Assembly: GCA_013204265.1 (NCBI GenBank)
Contig: JABMOG010000110.1
Location: 1 to 51,467 of the forward strand
Direction: 5' to 3'
Source of the DNA: Rhodospirillales bacterium
GTDB taxonomy: Bacteria > Pseudomonadota > Alphaproteobacteria > Rhodospirillales > Casp-alpha2
DNA length: 51,467 nt
Shown piece by piece: positions 29,116-35,012 of this stretch. How positions within the stretch are numbered: position 1 is the stretch's first letter; each line of letters starts with the position of its first letter. The position numbers and the translations under genes are program-made. A model generated the notes under the pieces. The model worked only from the letters and a program-made list of their open reading frames with translations. It did no database searches and was not told the origin of the DNA.

Positions 29116-30021
29116 ATGAATATGCCTGCAAATTCCCGCGCCGGTTTCGTCGCCATCGTCGGCGCGCCCAATGTCGGCAAGTCGACGCTGCTAAACCGGC
29201 TGGTCGGGACCAAAGTGTCGATAGTCTCGCCCAAGGTGCAAACGACCCGGTCCAGGGTACTCGGTATCTGCATCGAAGGCGAAGCCCAGATCATTTTCAT
29301 CGACACCCCCGGTATTTTTAAACCGAAACGCCGACTCGACCGGGCCATGGTCGCCGCCGCCTGGGGCGGGGCCGGGGATGCTGACGACATACTTCTACTA
29401 GTAGACGCAAGCCGAGGATTCGACGGCGATACCCGCGATATCGTCAAACGGCTGCATCAAACCGAACGCAAGGTGACGCTGGCGATAAACAAGGTCGATC
29501 TGGTGCCTAAACCAAAACTGCTGAAAATGGCGACCGAAATGGACGCAACGGGCGTATTTTCCGACATCTTCATGATTTCGGCTGAAATGGGTAGCGGCGT
29601 CGCCGATCTTATGGCGCATCTCACCGCACACGTTCCCAAGGGACCGTGGCTGTTTCCCGAAGACCAGATTTCCGATATGCCGGGCAGGCTGACGGCGGCC
29701 GAGATCACGCGGGAAAAACTGTACCTGCAATTGCATCACGAACTGCCTTACGCGGCGGCGGTGGAAACCGAAGGTTGGAAAGAAATCAAAGATGGTTCCG
29801 TGCGCATCGAACAAGTGATCTACGTCGAACGTCCGACCCAAAAAGCCATTGTTCTGGGTAAGGGGGGCAAGCGCATCAAAGCCCTGGGTCAAGCCGCGCG
29901 CGAGGAACTGGAGGAAATTTTCGAGCGCCGGGTGCACCTGTTCCTGTTCGTCAAGGTGCGCGAAAAGTGGGGCGACGACCCGGAACGCTACCGCGACTTA
30001 GGCCTCAACTTCGACGCCTGA
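29116..30021 (+). CDS. era: GTPase Era
   Basis: GFVAIVGAPNVGKSTLLNRLVGTKVSIVSPKVQTTRSRVLGI, KH domain; start at 29116 after rnc. Confidence 0.98.
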   Translation: MNMPANSRAGFVAIVGAPNVGKSTLLNRLVGTKVSIVSPKVQTTRSRVLGICIEGEAQIIFIDTPGIFKPKRRLDRAMVAAAWGGAGDADDILLLVDASRGFDGDTRDIVKRLHQTERKVTLAINKVDLVPKPKLLKMATEMDATGVFSDIFMISAEMGSGVADLMAHLTAHVPKGPWLFPEDQISDMPGRLTAAEITREKLYLQLHHELPYAAAVETEGWKEIKDGSVRIEQVIYVERPTQKAIVLGKGGKRIKALGQAAREELEEIFERRVHLFLFVKVREKWGDDPERYRDLGLNFDA

Positions 30022-30126
30022 CGCCAAGAGTCTCAATCCAGGAGGAAGCATTTTGTGCCAGACTTCTTTCACCAGGAGCCCCTCCGGCTGGGCAGGGTGG
30101 GGGGATTGTGCCATCTTCGGTTTGTC

Positions 30127-31113
30127 ATGAACGTGTTCAGAATTTCCCTAAAAAGCTCGGCGGCGATTTTTCTAAGCGCCGCCATACTTTGTTTGAGCGC
30201 AGTATCATCGGCGGACGACAAGACTTCTTTCGTGAAACCCACTGTCGTGCCATCGCTTGCGTTCAATCCGCTCTCGGAAGCAAAAATCAAACTGGGGCAG
30301 AGGTTGTTTTTTGAACGCCGTCTGTCTGGTGGTAATTCCATGTCTTGGGCATCTTGTCACCAGCCGGACTATTCCTGGACGGACCCCCGACGCTTCAGTC
30401 TGGGGGAAACCGGTGTGCCGCGACCGCGACGCACGCCGTCATTGCAAGACGTCGCATGGAACATCTTGTTTGCTCGTGACGGACGGGTCGAAACCCTGGA
30501 AGGATTTGTTCTTGGACCGATCACCCATGCCGAAGAAATGAACCAGGACATCGATTTATTAACTTCTGAACTCGAAGCCGAGACAGGTTATCCGGATTTG
30601 TTTGAAGCGGCATTTGGCGCCCGGCGAATTACCCTTGATGGAATAACGCAAAGTCTTGCGACATATGTGCGGACGCTGCGCTCCGCAATCTCTCCCTTTG
30701 ATCGCTGGATCAAAGGAGACACAACAGCGATGAGTGAAGCCGCACAATCGGGCTTTAACGTATTTTCGGGCGATGCCGGTTGCTCACAATGTCATACGGG
30801 GTGGCGGTTCACCGACCAACAGTTTCACGACATTGGTCTCAAAACTGACGATAAAGGACGCGGAAAACTCAAACCTGATGCCATTCTTTCCCAGTATGCG
30901 TTTAAAACGCCGTCCCTCAGGAATGTGGCTATCCGCCCTCCATATATGCATAACGGCTCCATTAGCAGCCTGGAGGAAGTGATGGACCATTATCAGGCAG
31001 GGTTCATCTCACGCCCGTCTTTATCGCCATTAATTCGGAGATTTAAACTAACTGATCAAGAAAAATTGAACATAATTGAGTTCCTCAAAAGCCTGACAGA
31101 TGATATTCGCTAA
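30127..31113 (+). CDS. MauG/cytochrome c peroxidase family protein, exported, atypical first haem motif
   Basis: Signal peptide; LGQRLFFERRLSGGNSMSWASCHQPDYSWTDPRRFSLG...CSQCHTGWRFTDQQFHDIGL...FKTPSLRNVAIRPPYMHNGSISSLEEVMDHYQAG. Confidence 0.92.
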   Translation: MNVFRISLKSSAAIFLSAAILCLSAVSSADDKTSFVKPTVVPSLAFNPLSEAKIKLGQRLFFERRLSGGNSMSWASCHQPDYSWTDPRRFSLGETGVPRPRRTPSLQDVAWNILFARDGRVETLEGFVLGPITHAEEMNQDIDLLTSELEAETGYPDLFEAAFGARRITLDGITQSLATYVRTLRSAISPFDRWIKGDTTAMSEAAQSGFNVFSGDAGCSQCHTGWRFTDQQFHDIGLKTDDKGRGKLKPDAILSQYAFKTPSLRNVAIRPPYMHNGSISSLEEVMDHYQAGFISRPSLSPLIRRFKLTDQEKLNIIEFLKSLTDDIR

Positions 31114-31174
31114 GATTATTAAAACTCAACCAATGGTCACGCAAATAACAACTGTAAATAAAGGCTTAGAGACC

Positions 31175-31648
31175 ATGATCACCAGACTTCTAAAAATCTC
31201 CTTTCTTTTAATCCCGGTATTAATGGTGCCGGTTTCCGGTCACCAGGCCAATGCCGCCATGACGCCTACTGGCGAAATGATTGTGGTGCCGGAATATTTA
31301 CATGCTGAAGAGATCGTCAAAAAAGGCGATTTTGAAAAAGCCATTTACTATTTAAATGCAACATTACGTCAGTATCCTAACCACGCCAGCGCTTTCAACT
31401 TGTTAGGGTATGTCCACCGGCGCTTGGGTAATTTTGACGAGTCAGAAAAATACTACGACGCGGCGCTAACCATTAACCCCAATCATACCGGGGCGCTGAA
31501 CTATATGGGACAATTGTTCTTGCAAACCGGCCGACCGGAAAAGGCAAAAGCTTTGCTCAAACGTTTAGTAGAAGCGTGCAAGGATGGCTGTAGAGATCTC
31601 GATGATCTTGAAAAAGCAGTGGCCACCGGGGTGGTTGGCAATTATTGA
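31175..31648 (+). CDS. Small exported tetratricopeptide repeat protein
   Basis: Signal peptide then GDFEKAIYYLNATLRQYPNHASAFNLLGYVHRRLGNFDESEKYYDAALTINPNHTGALNYMGQLFLQTGRPEKAKALL. Confidence 0.88.
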   Translation: MITRLLKISFLLIPVLMVPVSGHQANAAMTPTGEMIVVPEYLHAEEIVKKGDFEKAIYYLNATLRQYPNHASAFNLLGYVHRRLGNFDESEKYYDAALTINPNHTGALNYMGQLFLQTGRPEKAKALLKRLVEACKDGCRDLDDLEKAVATGVVGNY

Positions 31649-31690
31649 GGGCGAATAAAGCCGGGGCAATATAGGCGAATATAGAGACAA

Positions 31691-33400
31691 ATGAGGATTA
31701 GCCGACGCGGGCTACATCTGACGGCGGGCCTGACGATGTTTACTTATGTCATCAGCCACCTGCTTAACCACGCCTTTGCCGTAATTTCCATTGAAGCCGC
31801 GAACACGGCTCGAATTGTCTTTGTCGATCTCTGGACCAATCCGGTAGGCACGATCATTCTGGCCACGGCAGCACTGACCCACATAACCCTGGCCCTGGAG
31901 ACAACCTATTTGAGGCGCAGTCTGCGCATGCCCGTTTGGCAATGGACCCAACTTGTCTTGGGCTTGTCCATTCCACTGCTGTTAATCGAACATGCGTTGG
32001 CTACAGGCGGCGGTATTTTAAGAACTGGTTTGCAACCAAATTATGAATATGTGCTGGCGGTTTTCTGGTATTTCGCGCCCGGCAAAGGGTGGCTGCAGTT
32101 TATTTTACTGGTCGTTGCCTGGACCCATGCCACTTTTGGAATTCATCATTGGCTGAAGGTGAAATTTTGGTACCCGGTTTGGCAGCCACATATATACGGA
32201 ATTGCCCTAGTCATTCCGGTGATGGCGACAATGGGGTATGTCTCAGGCGGATTCGAGGTTCTGGAAAAAATTAAAGATCCGTTGTGGTTGATCCAGATGC
32301 TCAAGGATATCAAATACCCCGGTCCGGATTTTGATCAACAAACCGTGGCCCTGCGTAATCAGTGGATAGTCGGTTACACCGCGCTTGTTTGTATTATCTT
32401 TTTGGCGCGCCGGGCCCGGATTTTCCGCGCCGCCCGTAAGGAGGGAATTCGGGCTACGTATCCCAGTGGTCGGCGGGTTTTGGTGCCAGACGGAGCGACA
32501 CTTTTGGAAACCAGCCGGGCCGGCGGGATTCCACATGCCTCTGTATGCGGTGGCCGAGGGCGTTGTTCAACTTGCAGGGTGCTTATTCTTGAAAGCCCAC
32601 CGGGCAGCCTTGCCCCCCCGGATGCAATCGAAAAAAGTGTGTTGGATAAGCTCAAATTACCGCCCAATGTGCGCCTTGCCTGTCAGATCCGGCCTAAAGG
32701 TAATATCACCTGCGAACCTCTGTTGCCGCCGGATATCTCGGCAAGGGATGCCTTGTCGCCGAGCCAGTTCATGCACGGTCAGGAGATGGAACTCACGGTT
32801 ATGTTTGTCGATCTTCGCGGATTTACCAAACTGTCTGAGAGTAAACTGCCATTTGATGTGGTGTTTCTGTTGAACCAGTATTTCCAGTCCATGGGGACTG
32901 CCATCGAAGGTGCTGGCGGGCGCATCGACAAATTCATCGGGGATGGCATCATGGCGTTATTTGGCATTGAAGATGGCCAGGAGAATGGTGCTGAACAAGC
33001 GCTTATGGCCGCACAACAGATGTCTTTTCGCCTGCAACAGATGAACGATAGATTGAAGAACGATCTTGAGAAACCTTTGCGCCTCGGCATCGGCATTCAC
33101 CGGGGTATGGCCATTGTTGGCACCATGGGCCATGGAGCGGCCAGCCAAATCACCGCAATCGGTGACATGGTGAATACGACATCGCGGCTGGAGGCTCTAA
33201 CAAAGGACCTTGGGGTGCAATTGCTGGTCAGTTCTGCCGTTGAGGATTCCGTGGATATAGACTTGAGCGGCTTCGAGCTTGCCGAGGTTGAAGTGCGCGG
33301 TCGAAAGCAGTCCCTACGCGTCCGGAAAATTGACGATGCAGGAAACCTCAAGGCGCTATTTTCTGCCCGCCAGGATGAGCCCAATAGCGTTCCAACTTAA
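31691..33400 (+). CDS. Adenylate cyclase (class III) with N-terminal SDH-cytochrome-b-like membrane anchor and [2Fe-2S] ferredoxin domain
   Basis: About 6 hydrophobic helices with His; SVCGGRGRCSTCRV...LACQ (CX5CX2C..C); MFVDLRGFTKLSE, KFIGDGIMALFG, AIGDMVNTTSRLE. Confidence 0.92.
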   Translation: MRISRRGLHLTAGLTMFTYVISHLLNHAFAVISIEAANTARIVFVDLWTNPVGTIILATAALTHITLALETTYLRRSLRMPVWQWTQLVLGLSIPLLLIEHALATGGGILRTGLQPNYEYVLAVFWYFAPGKGWLQFILLVVAWTHATFGIHHWLKVKFWYPVWQPHIYGIALVIPVMATMGYVSGGFEVLEKIKDPLWLIQMLKDIKYPGPDFDQQTVALRNQWIVGYTALVCIIFLARRARIFRAARKEGIRATYPSGRRVLVPDGATLLETSRAGGIPHASVCGGRGRCSTCRVLILESPPGSLAPPDAIEKSVLDKLKLPPNVRLACQIRPKGNITCEPLLPPDISARDALSPSQFMHGQEMELTVMFVDLRGFTKLSESKLPFDVVFLLNQYFQSMGTAIEGAGGRIDKFIGDGIMALFGIEDGQENGAEQALMAAQQMSFRLQQMNDRLKNDLEKPLRLGIGIHRGMAIVGTMGHGAASQITAIGDMVNTTSRLEALTKDLGVQLLVSSAVEDSVDIDLSGFELAEVEVRGRKQSLRVRKIDDAGNLKALFSARQDEPNSVPT

Positions 33401-33443
33401 ACCATTGACGCCAAAACTTTACCGATGATTTAGATTCGTAAAT

Positions 33444-34187
33444 TCACCCGCCCCGTTGGCGCACCGCCATCGCCCAATCGACACACGCGCTGGCCAGGGC
33501 CGCCGTCGGGTCGATGCATCGTTCCGCGACCCAAGGGTCATTCATGTCCAGGCCGACCGGCAGCTCGGTGCATCCCAACACGACTTTTTCGGCCCCATTG
33601 TCGAGCAGGCGCTCGACCGCGTGGCGCATCATTTCCTTGGCCTCTGGAATCCGGTTTTCCTTTACCAGGGCAATGCCCGGAACGACGTGCGACGCGGTCA
33701 GGTCCGCATCGGCGACAAGGCAGCCGAACCCCCGTTCCAGAATCGGATCTTCGTAGAGGCGCCCTTCAACCGTCGCCCGGGTTCCCATCAGGCCGATGGT
33801 CGCACCGGAAAGACCCGCCGCCTCAAGCTCCGCGATCACCGCGTCGACAATATGTATAAAAGGAATGTCCAGCCCGGCGCTCAGTTCCGCATACCAGTAA
33901 TGGGCCGTATTGCACGGCATAGCGATAGCCTGCGCCCCGGCTGAAACGAGAAAGTCCCGGCGGTCCAGCATCGCCGCCAGCGGCGAGGAAGGGTCATCGT
34001 TCGCCAACCCCAATGCCCGCACAGGGATATTCGGCTCGGACGAGACCACGAGAGGGATATGTTCTGTGTCAACCCGGGCGGGCGTGCGCGAAATCAGCTT
34101 GGTCAGAAAGTCCGCCGTCGCCAACGGCCCCATGCCGCCCAGCACGCCCAGTAAATCGGGTCTTGATCGGGAATTTGTTAAAGTCAT
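33444..34187 (-). CDS. Aspartate/glutamate racemase family protein
   Basis: LLGVLGGMGPLATADFLTKLI, AIAMPCNTAHYWY, VVLGCTELPV. Confidence 0.95.
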   Translation of the reverse strand: MTLTNSRSRPDLLGVLGGMGPLATADFLTKLISRTPARVDTEHIPLVVSSEPNIPVRALGLANDDPSSPLAAMLDRRDFLVSAGAQAIAMPCNTAHYWYAELSAGLDIPFIHIVDAVIAELEAAGLSGATIGLMGTRATVEGRLYEDPILERGFGCLVADADLTASHVVPGIALVKENRIPEAKEMMRHAVERLLDNGAEKVVLGCTELPVGLDMNDPWVAERCIDPTAALASACVDWAMAVRQRGG

Positions 34188-34265: not shown

Positions 34266-35012
34266 ATGGACTGGACAGACGACGGCATCGTTTTATCGGC
34301 AAGGAAGCACGGCGAATCATCGGTCATTGTTTCCCTGCTGACCCGCGAACATGGCCGGCACATGGGGCTTGTTCGCGGGGGTAATGGCAAACGGGCGCGC
34401 GGCATCCTGCAACCCGGAAACCGGGTCGAGGCCCGCTGGCAAGCACGCCTGTCGGAACACCTGGGGGCATTCAACTGCGAATTGACCGAAGCCTTCGCCG
34501 CCAAGGTCATGCGTGATGCTGTTAAATTGGCAGGGCTCAGTGCGGCCTGCGCGGTTGCCGAAGGCTCGCTGGCCGAGCGCGAATCCCACCCCCCCGTATT
34601 CGACGGGCTGTTGGCATTAATGCAGGTCATTGAGAATGACGACGGGCATGACCACTGGCCGTCGGCCTATGTGAAATGGGAATTGGGTGTGCTGGGCGAA
34701 GTTGGGTTCGCGCTCGATTTGAGCACGTGTGCGGCAACCGGAAGCAATGACCAGCTGGCGTACGTGTCGCCCAAATCAGGCCGTGCGGTTTCACTGGCCG
34801 CCGGTGAGCCTTATAAAACCAAAATGCTGACACTGCCGGAATTTTTGTTGCGCCCCGGAGGTGGAGGCACCCCGCAAGACATTTTGGCGGGGCTCAAGCT
34901 AACCGGCTATTTCCTGGATAAACACATCTTCCAACACACTGCCAAGGGGATGCCATCGGCGCGCCACAGGCTCGCGGAAAGGCTCCGGCCAAAACCGGCG
35001 GGCAATACGTGA
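34266..35012 (+). CDS. recO: DNA repair protein RecO
   Basis: MDWTDDGIVLSARKHGESSVIVSLLTREHGRHMGLVRGG. Confidence 0.97.
   Translation: MDWTDDGIVLSARKHGESSVIVSLLTREHGRHMGLVRGGNGKRARGILQPGNRVEARWQARLSEHLGAFNCELTEAFAAKVMRDAVKLAGLSAACAVAEGSLAERESHPPVFDGLLALMQVIENDDGHDHWPSAYVKWELGVLGEVGFALDLSTCAATGSNDQLAYVSPKSGRAVSLAAGEPYKTKMLTLPEFLLRPGGGGTPQDILAGLKLTGYFLDKHIFQHTAKGMPSARHRLAERLRPKPAGNT

Follow-up and report, generated by a model that had tools for sequence, protein, structure and literature searches.

We report that three adjacent genes from a Rhodospirillales bacterium, encoding a CCP/MauG-family protein, a TPR protein and a CyaC-type class III cyclase, form a conserved, co-inherited unit (hereafter the trio), as shown by comparison of gene neighbourhoods and gene trees among alphaproteobacteria. 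These sequence comparisons make it highly probable that the trio is also a functional unit. Our preferred reading, to which we assign a probability slightly above 50%, is that a periplasmic haem/redox sensor and a TPR adaptor feed the CyaC-type cyclase, all three being inherited and transferred as one module. A new finding, and the most general one of this study, is that, on the basis of co-occurrence, CyaC-type cyclases are generally accompanied by members of the TPR family. The analysed DNA (the window) comprises 51,467 nucleotides (contig JABMOG010000110.1 of assembly GCA_013204265.1) and belongs to a draft alphaproteobacterial genome of 3.1 Mb in 371 contigs (90% complete, 6% contamination).

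The three open reading frames are co-directional on the + strand and occupy positions 30127..31113 (CCP/MauG-family protein, hereafter CCP; 328 aa, Pfam CCP_MauG 5e-45), 31175..31648 (TPR protein; 157 aa) and 31691..33400 (cyclase; 569 aa). The gaps of 61 and 42 nt confirm a preliminary description of this DNA, in which a co-directional trio with short gaps of about 60 and 40 nt was noted; the TPR gene was likewise present as described there, except that its start is at 31175, the previously given 31174 being one base early. Both the CCP and the TPR protein have signal-peptide-like N-termini, as judged by eye, and are taken to be exported. A promoter/terminator scan, otherwise uninformative, revealed no terminator-like sites between the trio genes, and no mau gene is present among the immediate neighbours (era, TPR, cyclase, racemase and recO).

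The cyclase gave Pfam matches to Guanylate_cyc (PF00211, 3.7e-20) and Fer2 (1.4e-9). In its AF2 model residues 5-248 contain six long helices, corresponding to a predicted membrane anchor (31691..32434, +), which is followed by the [2Fe-2S] ferredoxin domain (residues ~258-336; 32462..32698, +) and the class III cyclase domain (residues ~366-540; 32786..33310, +). In an alignment of 30 homologues the [2Fe-2S] ligands Cys286, Cys292, Cys295 and Cys331 are invariant, as are Asp374, Asp418, Asn495 and Arg499 of the cyclase domain; the window cyclase also has the adenylate-type pair Lys414 and Thr488, and the closest fold matches of this domain are solved class III cyclases. By these features the protein is a class III adenylate cyclase. 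With respect to the anchor, H64, H101 and H146 are invariant and H23 is nearly always present in the same alignment, and these four are the putative di-haem-b ligands. No Pfam family matched the membrane part (Sdh_cyt reached just E=0.94, in one homologue), and when the anchor sequence was compared with those of solved structures, including quinol-linked cytochrome b, nothing matched up to E=10. Of the earlier designation as an Fe-S/cytochrome-b-anchored cyclase, the Fe-S and cyclase parts therefore stand on their Pfam matches, while we infer the cytochrome-b-like anchor from the six predicted helices and the four (nearly) invariant His, since no Pfam family applies.

CyaC of Sinorhizobium meliloti combines a six-helix anchor carrying two haems b with a [2Fe-2S] cluster, and oxidation by quinones activates it (PMC10463352). 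The window cyclase shares with CyaC the anchor-[2Fe-2S]-cyclase domain order and the four putative haem-b His, and its Lys414/Thr488/Asn495/Arg499 correspond, at a constant offset of 4, to Lys410/Thr484/Asn491/Arg495, i.e. the CyaC residues that were mutated (K410/T484 and N491/R495; PMC10463352). By all sequence features tested the window cyclase is CyaC-like, with predicted binding of haem and quinone, and the earlier suggestion of a redox-regulated CyaC type held up, as the six helices, four His, four [2Fe-2S] Cys and catalytic residues are intact. We consider it likely that the trio cyclase exerts CyaC-like redox control of cAMP, for which the genome encodes possible receivers (12 cNMP_binding matches). 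The trio cyclases form a clade of their own, and, unlike S. meliloti cyaC, which adjoins the TetR gene cycR, they are partnered by genes for a predicted exported CCP/MauG-family protein and a predicted exported TPR protein. Among other relatives, anchor-[2Fe-2S]-cyclases of the same order also form a large sister group, in which the adenine-binding Lys is replaced by Gln/Asn (AQFNGDG) and Thr usually by Ser (SALGD; L046:6699-8342, L047:5837-7456, L048-L056, L058 and L059). CyaC-type cyclases of 39-40% identity that have kept the four anchor His and the [2Fe-2S] Cys are present in Herpetosiphon (Chloroflexota; L040-L043, 6001-7623), far beyond the Proteobacteria.

Cyclases were gathered from alphaproteobacteria (248 genomes of the order and 385 of the class). 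Six of them share at least 58% identity (those of the window, G023, G177, G031, G063 and G464, the last from another order), and CCP and TPR relatives adjoin the cyclase in every case; the proposed trio hinged on such conserved co-occurrence, which was thus borne out by the closest cyclases. The order CCP-TPR-cyclase is co-directional in the window, G023, G177 and G464, and the cyclase gene is convergent on CCP-TPR in G031 and G063; the CCP stop and the TPR start overlap by 4 nt in G063 and G464. A contig break interrupts the G023 trio, but the end of C42 encodes the beginning of the cyclase and overlaps C78 by 14 bases. The G177 trio (L094:4262-7255) is frame-broken in both the CCP and the cyclase, which suggests decay or assembly errors. 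No further common genes were found in the flanks across the six loci. In each tree the six trio members group together (CCP 94/94, just below the strict mark; cyclase, SH-aLRT 97; TPR 99/97), and it is the agreement in branching order among the three gene trees, with G063/G031 outermost, followed by G464 and then by the window, G023 and G177, that identifies the trio as co-inherited. Since G464, from another order, is nested among trios some of which belong to the family of the window, the data point to movement of the trio between bacteria as a whole unit.

At the examined loci of cyclases with 35-51% identity, the available flanking DNA contained no CCP, and the CCP was accordingly rejected as a general marker of CyaC-type cyclases. 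Overall, the comparison strengthens the proposed association of the three genes, with a narrow distribution: the CCP is restricted to the cyclase clade of at least 58% identity, whereas the TPR partner is widespread. A plasmid search returned many cyclase homologues of 41-42% identity, mostly from Rhizobium, and the trio was absent from the two plasmid neighbourhoods examined (one around a cyclase and one around a CCP). A search of the literature, mostly openly readable papers, gave no CCP/MauG-cyclase or TPR-CyaC module.

In this genome the trio is, on gene order and base composition, a recent arrival in the form of a low-G+C insertion between era and racemase/recO. Together with a reversed racemase gene it lies between era (ending at 30021) and recO (34266-35012); in G003, the nearest congener sampled (RecO 80%), era is directly followed by the racemase gene and recO and the trio is absent, and era adjoins recO in G001, G005, G008 and G023. 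The G+C content of the trio genes is 46-53% vs 58-63% for era, recO, the racemase gene and parC; values of 51-54%, likewise low, were also obtained for lepB and a distant gene. The 9-bp sequence TGACGCCAA is present at both edges, at 30019..30027 (+), overlapping the era stop codon, and at 33406..33414 (+), just past the cyclase gene, and this pair may be a trace of the insertion or due to chance. The racemase gene (33444-34187, - strand) scores as cysteate racemase CuyB (222 bits vs the NCBIfam cut-off of 190); it is also present in G003, and G001, G005 and G008 are without a racemase gene between era and recO.

The TPR protein matches TPR_2 (1.4e-17) with tandem repeats, and its model is helical (pLDDT ~96-98 over residues 41-150) with TPR proteins as fold matches; by model it shares the standard TPR helices of exported TPR proteins (Pfam TPR_2/TPR_19). 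Unlike other exported TPR proteins it belongs to a defined sub-family with a C-terminal C-x2-4-C motif, which is common to its TPR relatives (C-x3-C in the window, Cys135 and Cys139), and with a statistical tie to CyaC-type cyclases; no description of such a sub-family was found in a literature search. Specifically, a profile search of the class genomes detected the family in 63/80 cyclase-positive vs 13/80 cyclase-negative genomes (Fisher p 9e-16) and, among genomes of at least 2.5 Mb only, in 61/78 with vs 6/33 without the cyclase (p 5e-9), these p-values being indicative because related species are non-independent and the genome sets are not clade-matched. A TPR gene is located at most 500 nt from the cyclase gene in 19 of the cyclase-positive genomes vs 0.03 expected, in co-directional, convergent or divergent orientation. 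The family is not cyclase-specific, since members also adjoin unrelated genes, i.e. rsmB/guaA, a sulfite-oxidase-like gene and a gene for an exported glutathione peroxidase. Tad-pilus TPR proteins were rejected as the cause of the co-occurrence, the conserved other context being guaB-rsmB-guaA. As to these other contexts, the guaB-rsmB-TPR-guaA neighbourhood is conserved in several alphaproteobacteria (L208-L211 and L213). In G431 (L216:3549-5363) genes for a sulfite-oxidase-like molybdoenzyme and a glutathione peroxidase with a signal-like N-terminus are followed by the TPR gene, and the molybdoenzyme gene also adjoins the TPR gene in G292 and G295.

The CCP resembles the MauG/bCCP superfamily (PF03150), including BthA, in family sequence, predicted export, a CxxCH motif for haem 2 (CSQCH, residues 219-223) and the distal Pro and Glu (Pro131 and Glu137 by alignment), and the pocket Pro and Glu are likewise retained in the other trio CCPs. 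Like MauG and BthA, and differing from canonical bCCPs, which have Met, it carries a Tyr (Tyr289) in the Tyr/Met column for the ligand of the 6c haem; assigned by alignment, this corresponds to the Tyr-His haem of MauG, and the position is Tyr in all trio CCPs except the broken G177 copy. The top NCBIfam match is MauG, but the score of 308.5 bits for TIGR03791 is below the equivalog cut-off of 443.85. The window CCP also differs from MauG in its haem-1 motif, WASCH (residues 74-78; Trp codon TGG at 30346-30348), and in having Arg117 at the inter-haem Trp position. The word atypical, used for this dihaem peroxidase-like protein in the preliminary description, was apt as WASCH is not CxxCH. Unlike in MauG, bCCPs and BthA, the distal-pocket Gln (MauG Gln103) is replaced by Phe or Val in the six trio CCPs (Phe127 in the window), which in addition are encoded with a cyclase; nearly all other relatives have Gln. 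The window CCP thus has neither the two CxxCH motifs of bCCPs nor their combination of a Met-His haem, distal Gln/Pro/Glu and inter-haem Trp.

bCCPs, MauG and BthA share the distal Gln, Pro and Glu, a conservation taken to indicate that variation there is detrimental to peroxide binding, while BthA tolerates the absence of the inter-haem Trp (PMC6405878). Because the conserved Gln is replaced in all six, ordinary peroxidase function is improbable for the trio CCPs collectively, and the earlier notion of a peroxide sensor is not supported, the window copy also lacking the haem-1 Cys and the inter-haem Trp. Single-Cys haem c is known from euglenozoan mitochondria, and the native maturation system of E. 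coli does not mature the trypanosome protein (PMC8262978); by analogy, haem 1 of the window CCP, with its single-Cys motif, is probably absent or loosely held, and as a di-haem enzyme the protein is probably impaired. Two CxxCH motifs are intact in G023, G031, G063 and G464, and in the frame-broken G177 copy CSQNH is present and Tyr is replaced by His. The idea that WASCH is a special, conserved haem motif was rejected, since it is private to this genome (the nearest relative, G023, has CASCH); as TGG differs from a Cys codon at a single base, WASCH may reflect an erroneous base in the MAG. Comparison of the window and G023 genes indicates, qualitatively because silent sites are saturated, that amino-acid change is well below silent change, which suggests that the CCP has been under selection in the past. 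A CCP relative (51%) with normal Gln and CxxCH motifs is encoded on an Indioceanicola profundi plasmid (L232:5893-7242), with no cyclase or TPR gene nearby and a C-terminal extension that is cupredoxin-like by eye.

According to the preferred reading, the exported haem protein would sense the periplasmic redox state or a small ligand and would not be a housekeeping peroxidase. The TPR protein would dock the haem protein at the anchor's periplasmic side, or relay its signal there via the Cys pair, and the redox state of the anchor haem b, also set by quinone, would pass via the [2Fe-2S] domain and switch cAMP synthesis, which, as reported for S. meliloti CyaC, would probably be on when oxidised. 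Since the window CCP is probably impaired, in this genome the function may rest with the TPR protein and the cyclase. The intact anchor His, four Cys and catalytic Lys/Thr/Asn/Arg of the window cyclase argue for the module. Counting against it, most CyaC-type cyclases lack a CCP neighbour, the anchor lacks a sequence match to solved quinol-linked cytochrome b, the TPR family also occurs beside unrelated genes, and the input arm appears dispensable or degenerate in two of the six, given the haem-1/Trp defects in the window and the broken CCP in G177. The CCP as the periplasmic input has somewhat less than an even chance of being correct, and H2O2 is unlikely to be the natural signal. Only tentatively do we suggest the fuller picture of a trans-membrane redox signalling system not described before: a di-haem-b/[2Fe-2S] adenylate cyclase would be controlled from the periplasm by a TPR adaptor with a Cys pair and by a CCP/MauG-family haem protein that has been repurposed and is no peroxidase, the TPR protein being a general but overlooked CyaC partner across alphaproteobacteria.

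Other explanations of the trio were weighed. One, which we regard as rather unlikely, is that the TPR protein, as a periplasmic regulator, and the cyclase are the working pair, the CCP being a non-essential extra, confined to one clade and decaying here. TPR-cyclase adjacency extends far beyond the CCP clade and in several orientations, and the CCP is damaged in the window and G177 while the TPR protein and cyclase of the window are intact; however, the CCP is retained beside the pair in all six genomes, one of them from another order, the low level of amino-acid relative to silent change between the window and G023 CCPs suggests earlier selection on the CCP, and WASCH may be a single-base MAG error. 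Short operons can contain unrelated genes, and the three genes might merely be co-located with unrelated functions, but this is extremely improbable given their co-occurrence in 6/6 genomes despite rearrangement and with unrelated flanks.

It is also conceivable, if quite improbable, that the CCP is a MauG-like maturation enzyme, which would perform a one-time oxidation or cross-linking of the TPR protein (Cys pair) or the cyclase and provide no signal input. This would agree with the Tyr-ligand type and the top match to MauG, with the overlapping or abutting CCP and TPR genes, and with the modification of a partner protein by MauG itself (PMC6405878). Against it, the match falls well short of the MauG equivalog score and the distal Gln is absent, no substrate residues were identified, and most TPR-cyclase pairs are without a CCP. 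A quinol peroxidase, in which the anchor would hand quinol electrons to a peroxide-reducing CCP and cAMP control would follow passively from anchor oxidation, is very unlikely. The trio does encode both an anchor of haem/quinone type and a di-haem protein of the periplasm, and activation on oxidation, as for CyaC (PMC10463352), would couple peroxide to cAMP. Yet the peroxidatic pocket is altered in all six CCPs, and the window copy has lost the inter-haem Trp and the haem-1 Cys.

Only a minority of bacterial class III cyclases have, to our knowledge, a known signal, CyaC being one of few with a defined redox input, and our literature search found no periplasmic partner of CyaC. The co-inherited haem protein and the widespread TPR companion provide named candidate genes for a link from periplasmic redox to cAMP. 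Moreover, a branch of the CCP/MauG family that has lost a catalytic-pocket residue and yet been kept with a signalling enzyme is a candidate case of enzyme-to-sensor conversion. If the preferred reading is true, the trio would represent a new kind of switch from outside redox to cAMP.
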